58,879 nucleotides of DNA from Helicobacteraceae bacterium (lineage in GTDB: Bacteria > Campylobacterota > Campylobacteria > Campylobacterales > Sulfurimonadaceae), in NCBI GenBank assembly GCA_013138865.1, contig WTBY01000022.1, forward strand, positions 1 through 58,879, given 5' to 3'. Of the stretch, positions 23,957 through 32,072 are shown one piece after another. The first letter of the stretch is position 1. Every line of letters starts with the position of its first letter. The translations under genes and the position numbers were made by a program. A model generated the notes under the pieces. It was not told the origin of the DNA. It did not search any database and saw nothing but the letters and a program-made list of their open reading frames with translations.

Positions 23957-25165
23957 TTATTTCAATTTACGAATAAAAATAACTTTCAGATAATTTGCCT
24001 CTTCAAAATTAGAGTTAACTCGAAAGTCTTTTGGTAAGCTAAAACGTTCTTCTATTTTAAATTTAAATTTCAACTCTTTAAATGCTTGTGTTATAAAGCC
24101 TCTAAAAGTCATCATACCAAAGTTCGCTGAGTTCGTTGAAGCTACGATCACACCATTCTCGTTTGTAATTTGAATAGCCTCTTTTAAAAGTTTTACATAA
24201 TCTTTTGAAGCACTAAAAGTGATCTTTTTTGATCGCGCAAATGATGGCGGATCTAAAACTACTACATCAAATAGAAATTTATTACGTACTGCATATTTAA
24301 AATAGTTAAAGACATCATCTACAACTATCTCCTGTTCATCTATATTTATACTGTTTATTTTAAACTGTTCAGTTGTTTTAGGTAAGCTTCTTTTAGCCAA
24401 GTCTACACTTGTCGTTTTTTTAGCTCCACCAAGGGAAGCAAAAACTGAAAAAGCACCAGTGTATGAGAAGGTATTTAAAATGGTTTTATCCTTTGAATAC
24501 TTATCACGAAGAGTCTGCCTTACACAACGTTGATCTAAAAATACTCCAACCATGGCACCATCATCTAAATAGATAGCAAAATTTACACCGTTCTCTTTGA
24601 CTAGAATAGGTTTAGGTGCCTCTTCTCCACAGATGAAATCGGCTTCGTCATCAAGGTACTTTCCTTTAGCATCAAAGCGTTTTTTTTGATATATACCTTT
24701 GTACTCAACACTATTTTTAAGAGCTTCTAAAATATAATTTTTAAGCTCATAAATACCAACACTATACCAAGTGATCATATAATAACCATCAAAATAGTCT
24801 ATACTTAGACCACCTATACCATCACCCTCACCATTAAAGACTCTAAAAGCAGTAGTCTCTTTATTTGTAAAAAAGTTCTCTCTATATTTGAGCGCTTCTT
24901 TAATTTTGGTAGTAAAAAAAGTAAGATCTATACTCTCACTCTTTTTAGTAGTTAAGATCCACCCATAGCCTCTGTTTTGAATACCATAGTAAGCTTTAGC
25001 AATAAACTGTTTTTTTTCATCAATAAGGTTTACGATCGTACCCTCATTAGGAGTGCTTTGTAAGTCTAGTATACTCTCTCTTGTAAGAAGAGGATATCCA
25101 TCTTTGTATTCTTGTGCATATTTTGTTTTAATAATTAAATTTGCGTTATCGTTCATGATTAGCAT
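23957..25165 (-). CDS. class I rRNA (cytosine) methyltransferase, RlmI-like
   Basis: A 402-residue protein with an N-terminal PUA domain (residues about 8-80) and a SAM-dependent Rossmann domain: NTFSYTGAFSVFASLGGAKK is the SAM loop, VVVLDPPSFARSK is the catalytic segment of 5-methylcytosine-type enzymes of the RlmI/YccW group. It methylates 23S rRNA in the E. coli relative. The ATG at 25165 and one three codons on (25156) are both possible; neither has a clear ribosome site. Confidence 0.85.
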   Translation of the reverse strand: MLIMNDNANLIIKTKYAQEYKDGYPLLTRESILDLQSTPNEGTIVNLIDEKKQFIAKAYYGIQNRGYGWILTTKKSESIDLTFFTTKIKEALKYRENFFTNKETTAFRVFNGEGDGIGGLSIDYFDGYYMITWYSVGIYELKNYILEALKNSVEYKGIYQKKRFDAKGKYLDDEADFICGEEAPKPILVKENGVNFAIYLDDGAMVGVFLDQRCVRQTLRDKYSKDKTILNTFSYTGAFSVFASLGGAKKTTSVDLAKRSLPKTTEQFKINSINIDEQEIVVDDVFNYFKYAVRNKFLFDVVVLDPPSFARSKKITFSASKDYVKLLKEAIQITNENGVIVASTNSANFGMMTFRGFITQAFKELKFKFKIEERFSLPKDFRVNSNFEEANYLKVIFIRKLK

Positions 25166-25292
25166 TGTATCAAATAATTAATTGTCGAACTTTTTCTAGC
25201 ATAAATTTTATTAAATATGACAAAATGCAATATATTTAAGTAAAGAAAAATATTTTAAATATACTACTACCATAAATAATTAAGGAGTACTT

Positions 25293-25418
25293 ATGACAGA
25301 GTTACTACTACTTGGAACAATAACTGTTAGTGTTTATATAATTGGAAAATGGTATATGAGGTATTATAAAAATAAGCGTCGCTACAGAGATGACCTCATA
25401 ACTAATTTATTTTACTAA
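25293..25418 (+). CDS. 41-residue single-span membrane peptide
   Basis: A short frame of 41 codons (MTELLLLGTITVSVYIIGKW at its start, then a basic, tyrosine-rich tail). AAGGAG at 25282-25287 stands five bases before the ATG, a good translation signal. The product would be one N-terminal membrane span with a positively charged cytosolic tail. It lies between the methyltransferase (divergent) and the HAD gene (27 bases on, same strand), so it may be co-transcribed with the latter. Function unknown. Confidence 0.65.
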   Translation: MTELLLLGTITVSVYIIGKWYMRYYKNKRRYRDDLITNLFY

Positions 25419-25444
25419 AATAAATATAAGGCTCAAGGAGCATA

Positions 25445-26083
25445 GTGTTTAAAAAATTTAAATCAATAATATTTGATATGGATGGTACACTAATAGATAG
25501 TGGTGATATTATATCAAATAGTATAAACTATGTTAGGCAGAAGCAAGGCTTAGAAGTAATAGATAAGTTAACTATTTTAAACAAAGTTAACGATCCTCAT
25601 ATAAACCCTGCGCACTATTTTTATGAAACAGAACAGTTTACTGATCGACAGAGTAAATATTTTGAAGAGTATTACACTAAAAATTATGCAAATCAAATTA
25701 AACTTTATGATGGTATTACTAATCTTCTTGAATCTTTGAAAGATCACTATAGTTTTTCAATTGCTACTAACGCTGCAACTAAATATGGAGTGATGATGGT
25801 AGAGCATTTAAATATTGCTCACTATTTTGATGAAGTAATTGGAGCTGATAAAGTTACACAAGGTAAACCAAACCCTGAAATGATATTAAAGCTTATGCAA
25901 ACTCAAAACTATAAAAAAGAGTCCACACTATTAATAGGTGATAGTCAAAAAGATATAATGGCTGCTAAAAGTGCTGATCTAGAATACATAGTCGTAAACT
26001 GGGGATTTAGTAACCATGATAATGCATTAACTGATGTAAATGAGTTGTTAAAACTATTAATTTCAACAAAAGAGTTAGAATGA
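25445..26083 (+). CDS. HAD-superfamily phosphatase, phosphoglycolate-phosphatase-like
   Basis: A 212-residue protein of HAD subfamily I: motif I FDMDGTLIDSG with the nucleophilic and acid/base aspartates, motif II SIATNAATKYG, motif III lysine in TQGKPNPEMI, motif IV LLIGDSQKD. A helical cap sits between motifs I and II. The start is the GTG at 25445 with AAGGAG at 25435-25440. Substrate not defined; phosphoglycolate or another small sugar phosphate is likely for this type. Confidence 0.85.
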   Translation: MFKKFKSIIFDMDGTLIDSGDIISNSINYVRQKQGLEVIDKLTILNKVNDPHINPAHYFYETEQFTDRQSKYFEEYYTKNYANQIKLYDGITNLLESLKDHYSFSIATNAATKYGVMMVEHLNIAHYFDEVIGADKVTQGKPNPEMILKLMQTQNYKKESTLLIGDSQKDIMAAKSADLEYIVVNWGFSNHDNALTDVNELLKLLISTKELE

Positions 26084-26186
26084 AAAAGTCAAAATATTAC
26101 TATTGATAAAATATTTTCAAGTTCGGCTAAAAGATTACAAAATAAGTAGTTTGATGATAGACTCTCATGTAACTAAGGAGCTTTTT

Positions 26187-26606
26187 ATGAATAAACTAAA
26201 CAATTTACCACAAGTTTCTCTCAATACTATGAACGAAGTTCATGAAGAAGAAGTATCTATAATTAATAAACTATTTTATTCACTTGATAATGAAGATGAC
26301 TTTAATACTATCTCCGAATGTTTAGCAACTCTGCTAATGCATGTACAAGAGCATTTTTCAAGCGAAGAGAAGCTTATGAAAGAGAGTAGATACCCTTCAT
26401 TTAGAATGCATAAAGCTAACCATGATAAAGTACTTAATGAATTGCGATACGCCCAAATGCAGTTCAGAAACAAAAAAGATAAAGATTTACTTCGTGAGTA
26501 TTTAGAAGATAATATTGTAGCTTGGTTAGATCAACATATTAAAGCTATGGATGTACCAATGGCTGATTTTATCCTACATATTCAAAACGTTTCTAACAAC
26601 AAATGA
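26187..26606 (+). CDS. bacteriohemerythrin
   Basis: A 139-residue single-domain hemerythrin. All seven di-iron ligands can be read: H19, H56 and E60 (HFSSE), H75 and H79 (HKANH), H117 and D122 (HIKAMD). It binds oxygen at a carboxylate-bridged di-iron centre, used for storage or sensing in microaerophiles. The ATG at 26187 is chosen over an upstream in-frame TTG at 26103 because AAGGAG stands at 26175-26180. Its stop overlaps the start of the FliG-like gene by four bases (ATGA), so the two are co-translated. Confidence 0.92.
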   Translation: MNKLNNLPQVSLNTMNEVHEEEVSIINKLFYSLDNEDDFNTISECLATLLMHVQEHFSSEEKLMKESRYPSFRMHKANHDKVLNELRYAQMQFRNKKDKDLLREYLEDNIVAWLDQHIKAMDVPMADFILHIQNVSNNK

Positions 26607-26911
26607 ACTATTTTAGCTATCTAAATAATGTAGAAGCTGAGCGTATCTATGAAGTTATGTCAATGGAACAGACTCAAACAATAGCAATAGTGCTCACTTA
26701 TATAAATGCTGATTTGTCTGCTCAAGTATTAGACTTATATCCGCAAGAGACTAAAGCAGATATAGCTATTAAGATGTCACAAGTAATTAACTTACCAGAG
26801 TCAGTATTAAAAAATATTGCTGATACACTTGAGACTAAGTTACTACCTAGTGGTATAAAGCTTGGTGGTGTTAAAGCTGTTGCTGATATATTAAAGTTGT
26901 TAGATAAGTAG
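26603..26911 (+). CDS. stand-alone FliG middle-domain-like protein
   Basis: A 102-residue protein that reads as one FliG middle (FliGM) domain: MEQTQTIAIVLTYINADLSA is the EHPQTIA-type segment, DLYPQETKADIAIKMSQV the following helices, and GGVKAVADILKLLD the conserved GG and C-terminal helix. Full FliG (about 330-340 aa) would have N- and C-terminal domains in addition; here they are absent. FliGM binds FliM and FliG neighbours in the flagellar rotor. Its overlap with the hemerythrin gene suggests a linked role. Confidence 0.75.
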   Translation: MNYFSYLNNVEAERIYEVMSMEQTQTIAIVLTYINADLSAQVLDLYPQETKADIAIKMSQVINLPESVLKNIADTLETKLLPSGIKLGGVKAVADILKLLDK

Positions 26912-26985
26912 TAATTATTTGAATTGATATATTGTAATCATAAATAGCAATAAAGTTTAGGAAGTTTTTTATAAAAGATATAAGT

Positions 26986-27001
26986 GGTAACCCCAAGGAG
27001 A
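26986..27001 (+). repeat. att-like direct repeat: copy of tRNA-Glu 3' end
   Basis: GGTAACCCCAAGGAGA at 26986-27001 matches the tRNA-Glu 3' end GGTGACCCCAAGGAGA at 30911-30926 in 15 of 16 bases and in the same orientation. It would be the outer attachment site of an island integrated at tRNA-Glu. The same bases are part of a hairpin (26984-27011, GTGGT-CCCC / GGGG-ACCAC) that could also act as a terminator for the hemerythrin operon, so the match could have a different cause. Confidence 0.65.
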
Positions 27002-27083
27002 GGGGCACCACCTTTTCAATTAGCCCCTATACATAGGCCTTAATTGAGTATCTAACCATTTGTGTACCAAATTTTATGCCATA

Positions 27084-27191
27084 ATATTAGCATTTCCAGA
27101 GAGCAAAAGTCAAGATGGTTTTTTTAGATGTTCAAATAATGTTTGACTTCAGCGACGCTCTCTTTGCGCTCGTTGCAGGGTTTTGTTATAT
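27084..27191 (-). repeat. attC-like site 4 (degenerate, end of cassette array)
   Basis: The right core is clear (GTTATAT at 27185-27191, complementary to the start of the last cassette). The other core is decayed (ATATTAGC at 27084-27091). Between them lie paired arms AGAGAGC / GCTCTCT (27098-27104 and 27157-27163) and AAGTCAA / TTGACTT (27107-27113 and 27143-27149), giving an imperfect hairpin of about 108 bp. Confidence 0.6.
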
Positions 27192-27193
27192 TA

Positions 27194-27804
27194 TTATTTA
27201 AGTGAATTATGGTTTTCATCTATATATCTTGGAAGAAATATTCCTTTAATACAATTTGGATTTAAAATAGCTAGTTGAATATGATTTTCAGTTTTAAAAC
27301 TAGCTCCTTTGTAAAGAGGTTTTCCTTCCCAAAATGCAGCTCTTACTGAATCAAACTCCATACCTTCATTTTTGCTAATTTATGTGCATATCGAATTACT
27401 GCACAGTCAAGTTCACGTTTTTTAAAGTCAAAGTCATTATTTGTGAAAGGTGTATTTTTAGGAAGTTCTTCACCATTTTCTATTAATGATTGTTCAAATT
27501 CATCATATGCCCAAGCTAAAAATTCTAAATTTTGTTGTTCTAATAAATCAAAACAATTTCCTAAATCAATAACAGCTCCAAGAGTAAATGGTTCTTTTAT
27601 TCTAGTTTCTCTTCTGTTGGAGTCTTCAATTGCATACTTTTCTGCACGTTTAAAGTTGTTTTCCCAAAAATATATGCCATTTCCAAGCCAATCATATTCA
27701 TTATGACTAGTTTTAAAATCTATTTATTTATTTAATATTTTGAGGGCGACTTCTTTATCGAGTCCATGAAAACCATATACAAAAGATGGCTTTTTAGTAT
27801 ACAT
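27194..27804 (-). pseudogene. broken toxin-like gene, ART-like signature
   Basis: On the minus strand the frame starts MYTKKPSFVYGFHGLDKEVA, then reaches a stop after LKILNK, continues in the same frame through DWLGNGIYFWENNFKRAEKY, and shifts by one base at a run of five A (HKLAK) before MEFDSVRAAFWEGKPLYKGA to the final stop at 27194. The order FHG ... DWLGNGIYFWE ... A-x-YA resembles small ADP-ribosyltransferase-like toxins. It starts on the last base of the small upstream gene (TAATG). It is therefore a decayed partner of a two-gene module. Confidence 0.65.
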
Positions 27805-27980
27805 TACGCAGTTATTTTTATAGCTTTACTTCTTTGAACAGTACTTTTTGAAAAATATGCTGAGTCATAATTTCCATTAGTATCAAGGATATGAGCATCT
27901 AATAATAATATTTTTCTATCTTGTCTAGTACGTTTGCTTGCTGATTTTTTTGCTTTTCGCATTAATTCAATTATTGACAT
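27804..27980 (-). CDS. small partner (antitoxin-like) of the broken toxin gene
   Basis: A 58-residue frame, MSIIELMRKAKKSASKRTRQ at its start, basic at the N-terminus and helical. AGGGG stands nine bases in front of the ATG. It overlaps the broken gene by one base, a coupling usual in toxin-antitoxin pairs, where the antitoxin gene comes first. It seems intact while the partner is not, as expected if the toxin was lost. No family recognised. Confidence 0.6.
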   Translation of the reverse strand: MSIIELMRKAKKSASKRTRQDRKILLLDAHILDTNGNYDSAYFSKSTVQRSKAIKITA

Positions 27981-28060
27981 AATAATAACCCCTAGATAAA
28001 TATAGGTTGATTATAGCATAACTATTTATTCAAACACATATGAAAGATATCTCATATGTA

Positions 28061-28129
28061 ATATAACGGTCGTCGTGAGCGATAATTTTCCCGCTAGGGA
28101 AATTATTGGTCTCCTCGTTTTTGTTATAT
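28061..28129 (-). repeat. attC-like site 3
   Basis: ATATAAC (28061-28067) and GTTATAT (28123-28129) are exact complements and form the outer cores of a 69-bp site. Inside, ATAATTTTCCC and GGGAAATTATT pair around a short loop with one unpaired base, as in integron attC sites. The orientation (AACAAAAACG on the minus strand, ACCGTTATAT at its end) fits attC behind a minus-strand gene. Confidence 0.8.
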
Positions 28130-28130
28130 T

Positions 28131-29000
28131 TTACCAGTTTTGTGTTTCACTAATTTTGTTCATTACAGATAAATAATTTTCTTCAATTTTTGTAATTTCA
28201 TCATCTTCTTTCGAACTATATTTTAAAATAAATTTATCCACTATCTTAGTATAAAATAATAGTGAATATATCAACATAAATTCACTGAAAGCTATATGCT
28301 CTAATCCAATTTGTAGTTGTTGTTCATCCCCATATATTTTAGCCATCATATAACTAATAGTATCTTCTGCATTAAGATGAGTTGTAGCACTTAGTCTTGA
28401 ATAAACTGTATGATATGTTATTTCCTCATCCACTTCTTGAAAACGTTTTAAATACTTTCTTGGAAGTGTATATGTTTCATCAATTTCTAAGACTTCTTTT
28501 ACTTGTTCAATATAAGTATTAACAAACTCTTTTTTTAATGTATGTAATTCTCGCCTAGTAGTTATTCTGGGTAAATGTATTCTTTTTTCTTCATCATTTT
28601 TTAATGAATCTTCCCAATTTTGGATATGATTAATATCATCAGATATATATTTTTTTAGCCATGAAAAGGTTTTGCTTTCGGTATCCCCTTTTAACATCAA
28701 TAAAATATTAACAGATGATTCAATAGCTGTCCGCGATAAAACTTCTGAAGAAGAATGATTTTTTGTACATACACAAGATATACTACCAGTAATTTGTTCA
28801 TATATACGTTCTGTCAGTTGTAATATAATTCCTACTGTTGGGTATTTATGAAAATCATCATTTTTTAAGTTAGACATTATTAGTTGAATTTTAGCACGCA
28901 GTTTTATGAGATTTAATACACAATCTTCTCCATCATTCCAATTTTCTTTAATTTTAATATTATGATGATTTTCAAATTCTTTTATTTGAGTCTTTGGCAT
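28131..29000 (-). CDS. cassette protein, DUF5677-like
   Basis: A 289-residue helical protein. The segment SRTAIESSVNILLMLKGDTE with the later YSRLSATTHLNAED gives the pattern of DUF5677-type proteins (a conserved helical RxxxE region followed by an H-rich helix); the match is by pattern only. AAGGAAG precedes the ATG. It fills a cassette bounded by matching core sites (29028 and 28123) with almost no free space, as expected for an integron cassette. Function unknown; related proteins are found in mobile DNA. Confidence 0.6.
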   Translation of the reverse strand: MPKTQIKEFENHHNIKIKENWNDGEDCVLNLIKLRAKIQLIMSNLKNDDFHKYPTVGIILQLTERIYEQITGSISCVCTKNHSSSEVLSRTAIESSVNILLMLKGDTESKTFSWLKKYISDDINHIQNWEDSLKNDEEKRIHLPRITTRRELHTLKKEFVNTYIEQVKEVLEIDETYTLPRKYLKRFQEVDEEITYHTVYSRLSATTHLNAEDTISYMMAKIYGDEQQLQIGLEHIAFSEFMLIYSLLFYTKIVDKFILKYSSKEDDEITKIEENYLSVMNKISETQNW

Positions 29001-29021
29001 ATGTGTAACTTCCTTTTACTA

Positions 29022-29092
29022 ATATAACGGCTGTCTTGAGAAATATGAAGCCGCACTTTGGCTTCATATTTCTCTCCAAGTACTTGTTAGCT
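29022..29092 (-). repeat. attC-like site 2
   Basis: A 71-bp site with cores ATATAAC (29022-29028) and GTTAGCT (29086-29092). The centre is a perfect 15-bp stem, GAGAAATATGAAGCC and GGCTTCATATTTCTC. The two outer cores differ because each belongs to a different cassette end, as expected after integron recombination. Confidence 0.82.
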
Positions 29093-29095
29093 TCT

Positions 29096-29551
29096 TTATG
29101 CATCATCCCTTGTCCCATGTTTTGGTTTTAACCCACTTGGCCAAGCTCCATTAGCAACGGGAATTGAACCATATGTATCATAAAAGCTTGTGATTAAATC
29201 AGCTTCTAGCTTATTGGGATTTTGTGTACCTCTTACTGAATACCAAGCTAAGCTTGTACCAAAAGATGCTCCATATTGGTAACGAGGCCACCAATATAAA
29301 TCATCATGATTTTCTATTGCAGAAGATATATTTTTTTTATGTGTTAATAATCTTTTTTTTAGATTTTTAGATTGTCCTATATAGAAAATAGGACTTGAAC
29401 CCCAAGGATAAATGAAATTTGTACCATCACTAGAACCTAAAACATATGTTCCTGATGTTTCAGGCAATTCATCTTCAGCTATTTGAAGTAAATCATCTAG
29501 TTTATCTGGCCATCTTCTTTCACTAAAAAAACGCAAGTTAAATTCTTTCAT
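29096..29551 (-). CDS. cassette GIY-YIG-domain protein
   Basis: A 151-residue protein. SGTYVLGSS gives the first GIY-type strand and SPIFYIGQSKNLKKRLLTHK the YIG strand with the conserved arginine-bearing helix. A tail of about 70 residues (WPRYQYGASFGTSLAWYSVR) with a glutamate in NKLEADLI that could be the metal ligand follows. AAGGAA lies upstream of the ATG. It is the only gene of a cassette with matching cores at 29578 and 29086. It is unrelated in detail to the GIY-YIG protein at 5383-5679 apart from the domain. Confidence 0.75.
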   Translation of the reverse strand: MKEFNLRFFSERRWPDKLDDLLQIAEDELPETSGTYVLGSSDGTNFIYPWGSSPIFYIGQSKNLKKRLLTHKKNISSAIENHDDLYWWPRYQYGASFGTSLAWYSVRGTQNPNKLEADLITSFYDTYGSIPVANGAWPSGLKPKHGTRDDA

Positions 29552-29571
29552 TTACATATATTCCTTTTGTA

Positions 29572-29639
29572 AGCTAACGGTTGTCGTGAGCGATAATTTT
29601 CCCGCAGGGAAAATTATTCGTTCCAAGATTTTGTTAGAT
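29572..29639 (-). repeat. attC-like site 1
   Basis: A 68-bp site with cores AGCTAAC (29572-29578) and GTTAGAT (29633-29639). The inner stem ATAATTTTCCC / GGGAAAATTAT is perfect. It resembles site 3 over most of its length (TGAGCGATAATTTTCCCGC is shared), so the two sites come from one family of attC sequences. Confidence 0.82.
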
Positions 29640-29843
29640 TTAACCTCTTGTAAGTTCAATAAGCTCTTTATCTTTAAATAGTAGATTATTTACAACTTGG
29701 GTAATGGTTGTATTCTTTTCAGTAGCAATTTTAGATATAAAATCTTCTAGTTTTGAATCTAAGTAAATTGGTAAATGAAAATTTGCATTTTTTTTGTAGA
29801 ATTTCCCTCGTTCACCTTTTGAAAAGTCATATTCATCTTGCAT
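29640..29843 (-). CDS. BrnA-type antitoxin
   Basis: A 67-residue protein with a charged N-terminus and a ribbon-helix-helix-like body (FHLPIYLDSKLEDFISKIAT, TITQVVNNLLFKDK). It follows the BrnT gene by three bases, the toxin-first order of brnTA. AAGGA stands before the ATG. It would bind and neutralise BrnT and repress the operon. It ends right at the attC site. I cannot exclude that it is a different RHH family that has replaced BrnA. Confidence 0.7.
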   Translation of the reverse strand: MQDEYDFSKGERGKFYKKNANFHLPIYLDSKLEDFISKIATEKNTTITQVVNNLLFKDKELIELTRG

Positions 29844-29846
29844 TTT

Positions 29847-30140
29847 TTATCCTTGATTATAAAATTTTATTTCGTTTTTTGTTGCTTTTCTGGCACTTAT
29901 CATTCGTATATTATACGTATCTTTGTCTAATGAAATATATGTATGAATTACAACGAGTGTTCTTGTTTTAGCATCTAAACCAATTGTAGCCCATCGTTCT
30001 TCATCTTCACTATGGCTTTCATCAAATATAGAAATAGAATTTTTGTCTTTAAAAATTGAAGCCGCATCTTCAAAGCTAATTTTATGTTTAGATAAATTTT
30101 TCTTTGCTTTTGTGGGATCCCATTCAAAGTTATAGTTCAT
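29847..30140 (-). CDS. brnT: BrnT-family ribonuclease toxin
   Basis: A 97-residue protein with the family layout: FEWDPTKAKKNLSKHKISFE, FKDKN, EERWATIGLDA, LVVIHTYIS and IRMISARKATKNEIKFY. The catalytic-type histidine and arginine residues (KHK, ARKAT) are in place. BrnT is a RelE-like RNase that halts translation when free. It is the first gene of the first cassette and AAGG lies in front of the ATG. The cassette spans 30223 to 29633. Confidence 0.88.
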   Translation of the reverse strand: MNYNFEWDPTKAKKNLSKHKISFEDAASIFKDKNSISIFDESHSEDEERWATIGLDAKTRTLVVIHTYISLDKDTYNIRMISARKATKNEIKFYNQG

Positions 30141-30216
30141 TAAAAGCCTTAGTATATTTTATATATTGTATCTAAAATAAAAAGTATAATTAAATTGAGT
30201 GTTTGCCTGTAGTGTA

Positions 30217-30223
30217 ATCTAAC
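30217..30223 (-). repeat. cassette boundary core (start of first cassette)
   Basis: ATCTAAC on the plus strand, GTTAGAT on the minus strand. It matches the core at the other end of the BrnT/BrnA cassette (29633-29639) exactly. The sequence to its right does not form a clear attC hairpin, so it is where an attI or a decayed attC would be. Confidence 0.6.
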
Positions 30224-30274
30224 TCTTTATTATCAGACATTATATACCATATTCACATAAATATCGTTATTAAT

Positions 30275-30467
30275 GGACATAAAAAATGTCCTATCTAAAA
30301 GTGGTTAAATCCCTATATTTAGGAAGGTAGTATCATTATTACATTAATATTTATATTTTGGATGGTCTAAACTTAAAGATAAAGTGTCCTTTTATCAAGG
30401 TATGTACCGTTATTAGGACAAAGTGTCTGCTATTTGTTAAATATTGGGGTAAAAGGACATTATGTCC
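30275..30467. repeat. cluster of GGACAT/ATGTCC motifs
   Basis: GGACAT-5 bases-ATGTCC at 30275-30291 and GGACATTATGTCC at 30455-30467 are palindromic; GTGTCC at 30384-30389 and AGGACAAAGTGTC at 30415-30427 are related half-sites. Four such sites in 200 bases look like a binding region for one protein, perhaps the decayed integrase next door. Confidence 0.5.
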
Positions 30468-30559
30468 CTTAAATGATATCCCCAAAGTTAAGGGTCTTTA
30501 TTCCTTCATACAGTTCTTTAATCCCATAGCCTTGCGAATAGGTGACAGAGGTGGTATCA

Positions 30560-30811
30560 CTATTGCTTCATCTGTGACAGGTAGTCCATTATGATGGCAT
30601 CTTTGTCATTGTTTCGGTCTAAATATATCATAGTTAAAAGCTCCTCAAATAAGTTATTTAAAGTTTCAATTACCATAATACCCTGGAACTTAGAGGTTTG
30701 AGACACTTGAATGCGGATTTCTAGTATATTTTCAAAATATTTAAGACATGGTTTTGGAATGCGGCGTCGAAAGTATAGTTTTTCGTTTCTTTCTATGAAG
30801 TATTTACTCAT
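30560..30811 (-). pseudogene. tyrosine-recombinase (phage integrase) N-terminal remnant
   Basis: The frame gives 83 residues starting MSKYFIERNEKLYFRRRIPK, with EIRIQVSQTSKFQG after it. That is the start of phage-type integrases (arm/core-binding part); a full enzyme has about 350-400 residues with an R-H-R-Y core, which is absent here. It begins 98 bases from the tRNA-Glu gene and points away from it, the usual place for the integrase of a tRNA-inserted island. It therefore looks like a dead integrase. Confidence 0.7.
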
Positions 30812-30909
30812 AATTGAGTCCTCTTGTGGACCAAAATGTGTACCAAATAGTTATCACTCAAAAAAGTATTTTATGAAAGTGTTTAAAATAGGGGGTTGTG
30901 GAGAAAAGT

Positions 30910-30984
30910 TGGTGACCCCAAGGAGATTCGAACTCCTATGACATGGATGAAAACCATGGATCCTAACCATTAGACGATGGGGCC
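30910..30984 (-). tRNA. tRNA-Glu (anticodon TTC)
   Basis: 75 nt on the minus strand with encoded CCA (30910-30912): acceptor GGCCCCA / TGGGGTC, anticodon stem CCATG around the loop GTTTTCATC with TTC, T-arm AGGAG-TTCGAAT-CTCCT. Its last 16 bases recur at 26986-27001, marking it as the integration site of the 27.0-30.9 kb island. Confidence 0.95.
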
Positions 30985-31026
30985 ACTTTAAAGTTTATTA
31001 ATTTGAAGGGTTAGGCTTCAAATAAA

Positions 31027-31102
31027 TGGTGTCCTGTGATGGATTCGAACCATCGGCATCCTCATTAAAAGTGAGATGCTCTACCAGCTGAGCTAACAAG
31101 AC
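31027..31102 (-). tRNA. tRNA-Lys (anticodon TTT)
   Basis: 76 nt on the minus strand with encoded CCA at 31027-31029: acceptor GTCTTGT / ACAGGAC, D-arm GCTCAGCTGGTAGAGC, anticodon stem CTCA-CTTTTAA-TGAG with TTT, T-arm GATGG-TTCGAAT-CCATC. It precedes tRNA-Glu by 42 bases in the direction of transcription; both are likely cut from one transcript. Confidence 0.95.
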
Positions 31103-31181
31103 ATTTACAGTCACAACTTGTTGTGGACGCGAATTATGCCCATTTCTTTTATTAATGTCAAGAAAATGCTAAAATTCTTTT

Positions 31182-32072
31182 ATGATTAATTTAGAGTATC
31201 CCTTTTTATTGTTGATACTTGCACCTATTTTTTACTGTTTATACAAGTGTAAGCCTCAAATTCAAGAGCTAATTTTCCCTCATTTACATCTGTTCTCTAT
31301 GAAAAAACAGTGGCTAAAGTTAGATCTGCTTATAAAAATTTTAATTTTAACACTTCTTGTAATCTCTTTAGCCTCCCCTATATATATAGACAAGTTTGAT
31401 CCGCAAAATAGAAAAGGGATTGACATAGTCCTTGCACTTGATGGCAGTGGAAGTATGAACTCCTCTGGTTTTGAAAAAAACTCTCGTAAAAGTCGTTTTG
31501 AAATAGCTCAAAGTAGAGCACAAAGTTTTATAATGGATCGTGATCGTGACAATATAGGTGTTGTTATTTTTGGAGACTACGCTTTTATAGCTTCACCTAT
31601 AACTTATGAAAAAGAGATTGTAAGTGAGATGATAGGTTACCTAAACTCAGGTATGGCTGGACAAAATACTGCGATCGCTGATGGTATTATGATGAGTCTT
31701 CGTGCTTTTAAACACTCAAAGGCAAGCTCTAAGGTAGTTATACTGCTTAGTGATGGTGAACATAATAGTGGTGACTTTTCACCGCAAGAGGCAGTACAAA
31801 GAGCAAAAGAAGAGGGTGCAAAGATCTATACGATCGCTATTACTTCTGAGGCTGACAATACACTTTTAAAAAAAATAGCAGATGAGACAGGTGGAGAGTT
31901 CTTTTTAGCTAAAGACTCCGAGGAGCTTCAATCTACTTATGAAAAGATAGACTCTCTTGAGCGAAGTAGTATAAAGTCACGTGAATACCTCTCAAAAGAG
32001 TACTACTACGCTTATCCTTTAATGTTAGCCTTTGCTTTTTTACTAATATTTTTAAATAGGGAGCTAAGATAG
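31182..32072 (+). CDS. BatA-like von Willebrand factor A protein
   Basis: A 296-residue membrane protein: a short N-terminal span pair, a VWA domain with the MIDAS motif LDGSGSMNSSG and the later threonine/aspartate residues (SDGEHNSG), and a C-terminal membrane span (AYPLMLAFAFLLIFLNRELR). Bat proteins (aerotolerance) act with MoxR-type ATPases in the envelope. It is the first of three genes (BatA, BatB-TPR and BatD-like) packed head to tail. The MoxR ATPase that normally leads the cluster is not in this window. Confidence 0.85.
   Translation: MINLEYPFLLLILAPIFYCLYKCKPQIQELIFPHLHLFSMKKQWLKLDLLIKILILTLLVISLASPIYIDKFDPQNRKGIDIVLALDGSGSMNSSGFEKNSRKSRFEIAQSRAQSFIMDRDRDNIGVVIFGDYAFIASPITYEKEIVSEMIGYLNSGMAGQNTAIADGIMMSLRAFKHSKASSKVVILLSDGEHNSGDFSPQEAVQRAKEEGAKIYTIAITSEADNTLLKKIADETGGEFFLAKDSEELQSTYEKIDSLERSSIKSREYLSKEYYYAYPLMLAFAFLLIFLNRELR

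Follow-up and report, generated by a model that had tools for sequence, protein, structure and literature searches.

A stand-alone FliG middle domain with an altered FliM-docking motif, encoded in overlap with a bacteriohemerythrin gene

The window (the whole stretch of 58,879 nt analysed here) encodes a stand-alone FliG middle domain of 102 aa (26603..26911, + strand; hereafter the orphan FliGM), whose gene overlaps the end of a gene for a 139-aa bacteriohemerythrin with seven di-iron ligands (26187..26606, +). The most likely explanation of the data is that the orphan is old, moves horizontally and is selectively maintained, that its partner surface has been altered, and that it is co-expressed with an ordinary hemerythrin. 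An earlier note on this DNA had identified the pair correctly as a bacteriohemerythrin and a stand-alone FliGM that are co-translated, in agreement with the Pfam and PDB matches and the ATGA overlap. Its further proposal, an oxygen-dependent motor switch operating through FliGM, did not fare as well: the docking motif is altered in both known orphans, the orphan's ortholog and the relatives of the hemerythrin are unpaired, and two of the latter's hosts are flagellum-less.

Fold, docking motif and descent of the orphan domain

The orphan matches the Pfam family FliG_M (PF14841) with 56.5 bits (cut-off 25; E 3.3e-15), and its residues 3-100 align with H. pylori FliG from the PDB (E 4e-13). Neither this family match nor that of the hemerythrin is a chance one. 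The N domain of FliG, which binds FliF, and the C domain, which contacts the stator, are absent from the 102-aa protein, leaving the M domain alone; against TIGR00207 it scores 55 bits and does not reach the cut-off of 226.7. A structure model built from a two-row alignment had a pLDDT of 81.7 overall and above 90 at residues 11-60 (the single-sequence model had a pLDDT of 55). The best PDB matches of this model are FliG, and it superimposes on H. pylori FliGM (4fq0_C) with a target-normalised TM score of 0.92 and an rmsd of 1.0 Å. Both the original description of a FliGM-like gene of 102 aa and the structure comparison suggested along with it are thereby borne out; as modelled, the orphan is a genuine FliGM and no look-alike.

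The surface of the domain presents a different picture from the one first drawn. The segment reported as EHPQTIA actually reads EQTQTIA, the codons of E22-Q-T-Q occupying positions 26666..26677 (+), and K57 (26771..26773, +) stands where the EHPQR motif has its invariant R. The GG-type segment is indeed there, as a conserved Gly-Gly pair kept at residues 88-89, before helix E (26864..26869, +). When 52 FliG-length proteins (frames longer than 200 aa; Campylobacterota relatives supplied nearly all of them) were aligned over their middle domains, each of the E, H, P, Q and R residues of EHPQ...R proved invariant (52/52). The window orphan has EQTQ..K and its ortholog in genome G263 EQLQ..K, so that H, P and R are replaced in both. 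The two orphans also share a deletion of three residues (consensus LES) in the D-E loop before helix E, and their helix A differs from the FliG consensus; helix A and the loop before helix E are reported to lie close together between neighbouring FliG subunits (PMC3091841). EHPQR is described as the FliM-binding site, and FliG mutants at H and R, as well as most of those at E, lose motility or flagella (PMC6290876). With EHPQ..R altered in both orphans, it is thus doubtful, judging from sequence, that the orphan docks on FliM in the canonical way.

Both orphan hosts carry fliF-fliG-fliH between hisC and dxs, recognised by sequence and position, plus FliM; a motor target therefore exists in each. 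In the window host, FliG, FliM and FlhA were all found. The full FlhA of this genome (G000) lies on contig 45; two more partial FlhA-family (PF00771) matches at 42518-46030 of contig 36 are possibly a second export gene, broken or split.

Relatives of the orphan were sought with the PF14841 profile in 228 genomes of the same family, 209 of which have a FliG_M match; where a genome had more than one match or a weak one, it was looked at again, or both matches lay in long frames. A single ortholog came to light, the 102-aa G263:C60 of a second genome in this family, which is 59% identical and has the same start and end. A two-row profile was then run against the order (399 genomes) and the phylum (397 genomes). 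The matches listed contained no third orphan, and all the others sit in FliG-length frames (the family, order and phylum samples overlap, and the latter two were subsampled). Further FliG_M matches in frames of 169-196 aa (L065-L068) were rejected as orphans, since they are proteins of a fliJ-like locus, which we read as MotE-like. Searching wider genome contigs with the orphan protein returned as sole match the ordinary FliG of a gammaproteobacterium; viral contigs and phages gave none, and among plasmids there were six weak matches, one unannotated and the other five annotated as FliG. Occurrence of the orphan is thus sporadic. The contig of the G263 copy is plasmid-like, with ParA, ParB and an IS200-type transposase, and a tRNA island adjoins the window copy (see below), which places both copies in or beside accessory DNA.

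Comparison of the two orphans by the NG86 method gave a dN of 0.35, a dS of 1.36 and a dN/dS of 0.26, a rough value since dS is near saturation. However rough, dN stayed lower than dS in each of the 286 usable codon bootstraps (300 run): the orphan and its ortholog are under purifying selection. In the tree, the window orphan and its G263 ortholog (L063) form one clade (100/99), separate from the FliG of either host. The position of this clade inside the FliG tree was left unused on account of its long branch. Identity between the orphan and its host's own FliG is 28%.

The hemerythrin gene and its overlap with the orphan

The hemerythrin reading frame runs from an ATG at 26187 to a stop at 26604-26606 and is preceded by a Shine-Dalgarno sequence, AAGGAG (26175..26180, +). 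The claim of a complete seven-ligand protein holds, all seven residues being found (H19, H56, E60, H75, H79, H117 and D122) with the canonical spacing H-HxxxE-HxxxH-HxxxxD. The protein passes TIGR02481 (75.6 bits; cut-off 51.75) and Pfam PF01814. According to the literature on this phylum, such proteins handle oxygen and give protection, sensing being left open (PMC10066037).

Stop and start codons of the two genes overlap as ATGA (26603..26606, +), just as the earlier note had it. Since the FliGM start (AACGTTTCTAACAACAAATGA) lacks a visible Shine-Dalgarno sequence, translation of FliGM probably depends on, or is coupled to, that of the hemerythrin. Upstream on the same strand, a gene for a HAD-family hydrolase (25445..26083, +) is a possible operon partner that is not specifically linked to the pair; a synteny comparison of this gene gave nothing useful.

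On the other side, the FliGM stop codon falls 74 bp outside a small island (26985..30926) of about 3.9 kb, lying between a tRNA-Glu and a near-repeat of its 3' end (17 nt with one mismatch, at 26985-27001 and 30910-30926). The island encodes a BrnT-type toxin (29847-30140), a DUF5677 protein and a GIY-YIG-like ORF under the Pfam cut-off. It also contains a 64-nt direct repeat (28047-28110 and 29558-29621, 83% identical), which lies upstream of the far ends of two minus-strand ORFs and includes a short palindrome-like stretch. An Rfam scan of positions 25000-31300 found two tRNAs and nothing else.

The association between the two genes was followed from both ends. A tblastn search of the 9 kb around the G263 orphan detected no meaningful hemerythrin; the best hemerythrin matches in that entire genome are weak (E 1.1e-7), the top one lying inside a 721-aa frame. 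Conversely, the nearest relatives of the window hemerythrin (in G034, G230, G048, G012 and G145) are 58-66% identical to it and the six closest full-length ones 48-66%, and neither these six nor any of the closest eleven listed have a FliGM next to them. With the ortholog lacking a hemerythrin and the relatives lacking a FliGM, the pair is known from one genome, and conservation of the pair together with flagella was not found. Moreover, two of the three closest hemerythrins belong to genomes (G034 and G048) in which no FliG_M match, FliM or FlhA was detected, indicating that the hemerythrin subfamily is not tied to flagella. Equal presence in non-flagellated relatives, the condition raised earlier, holds for the hemerythrin and not for the orphan FliGM; both hosts of the latter are flagellar, which with two genomes says little.

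FliG-derived reading frames in flagellum-less relatives

The site between hisC and dxs, where flagellated relatives have fliF-fliG-fliH, is occupied in flagellum-less relatives by one FliG-domain ORF of 288-548 aa. Six of these relics were delimited: L050 (694-2340), L052 (1045-2007), L054 (1060-2007), L055 (531-1409), L058 (1327-2193) and L064 (979-1848). Their FliG domains vary from N-M-C down to M only, and two of the six have a FliF-like stretch as well. All keep (E/Q)HPQ, and FliM and FlhA are absent from the relic-bearing genomes (four of them single-contig), G055 excepted. Persistence of the motif in genomes without FliM means that its conservation alone is no proof of FliM binding. Over eight pairs of relics, dN/dS is about 0.2-0.3, and dN was below dS in every usable bootstrap (the pair L055-L058 is saturated). 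These values suggest that a FliF/FliG-derived membrane protein is maintained without a flagellum, and that a FliG_M domain can serve outside it. Relics under selection raise the question of what purpose rotor domains have where there is no rotor.

The exception, G055, has FliM, FlhA and a second, full-length FliG. In G055 contig 18 (L051) and L064, the relic ORF is accompanied by a divergent full FliG, FliM and FlhA on another contig. For an otherwise flagellum-less genus, this suggests either that a flagellum was regained by transfer or that the draft assembly is contaminated. The available part of a study of flagellar evolution in the phylum (PMC9321776) describes Sulfurovum/Nitratifractor and some Campylobacter as having lost their flagellar genes completely, and makes no mention of relics of the FliF/FliG type.

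Possible roles and relation to known systems

Our preferred reading, which we hold tentatively, is that the orphan represents a rare clade of accessory rotor-domain mimics and that its expression is coupled to that of a bacteriohemerythrin which is solo and belongs to a widespread subfamily. The orphan would be a soluble protein with a changed partner surface, which may join the C-ring through the armadillo stacking of FliG or through a weakened FliM contact and so tune or cap the ring. The link with the hemerythrin would be recent and couple expression only, the hemerythrin presumably retaining its usual role in oxygen binding, delivery or detoxification. Two observations pull the other way: an ATGA overlap without Shine-Dalgarno could signal a true functional unit, and the FliM-less relatives that keep (E/Q)HPQ make the state of EHPQ a poor guide to FliM binding. 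With two orphan copies known, distribution and context are thin. If correct, the preferred reading would point to a new kind of accessory C-ring modulator on mobile DNA, and an orphan with a rewired motif that is nevertheless selected would be a natural test of the role of the EHPQR surface.

That the orphan has been repurposed for work outside the flagellum, together with a partner that is not FliM, is somewhat unlikely. The alteration of FliM motif and D-E loop around a conserved core would suit such a change of partner, and relatives without FliM and FlhA do maintain FliG_M domains under selection. Yet the gene content of both orphan hosts is that of flagellated bacteria, and the relics keep the (E/Q)HPQ that the orphans have lost, so the use is not obviously the same.

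The oxygen switch, were it true, would matter more. In this model the hemerythrin is an oxygen sensor that uses FliGM to act on FliM/FliG, giving motor control independent of CheY. The overlapping, probably coupled genes would suit it, as would the FliG, FliM and FlhA of the host and the precedent of CheO, which in C. jejuni acts on FliM/FliY independently of CheY (PMC9665402). Against it stand the changes in a motif whose mutation abolishes motility or FliM binding (PMC6290876), an ortholog without hemerythrin, and closest hemerythrins without FliGM, some of them in flagellum-less relatives. As the docking motif is mostly lost and the pair has been seen once, these data do not support a motor switch controlled by oxygen; an oxygen-gated switch of some kind is possible but weakly supported, and on balance we consider this mechanism improbable. 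A variant in which hemerythrin and orphan form a two-protein module that responds to oxygen and attaches to the rotor via the rewired FliGM surface, again for switching without CheY, appears a shade less probable still. Finally, that the FliGM frame arose by duplication of fliG and is now a fragment in decay, as a lone middle domain abutting a tRNA island might suggest, is the least credible of all, given two copies that agree in start, length and end, the low dN/dS, the distance from the host FliG and the separate clade.

Set beside known systems, the window hemerythrin resembles the bacteriohemerythrins of NF033749 and TIGR02481 in being a single-domain, soluble protein with seven di-iron ligands, although its 76 bits fall under the 84-bit cut-off of NF033749; it is unlike the others in its translational overlap with FliGM, which occurs in the window genome only. 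HerA and HerB of C. jejuni are examples of bacteriohemerythrins. CheO, compared here by description, offers the precedent for an oxygen-responsive, CheY-independent action on the switch, and differs in having neither a hemerythrin nor another known sensory domain (PMC9665402). With H. pylori FliGM (3usy/4fq0), the orphan shares the fold, domain length, core residues, GG pair and start of helix E; unlike that FliG, it is free-standing, has EQxQ..K for EHPQ..R and a D-E loop shortened by three residues, and forms a group of two known members.
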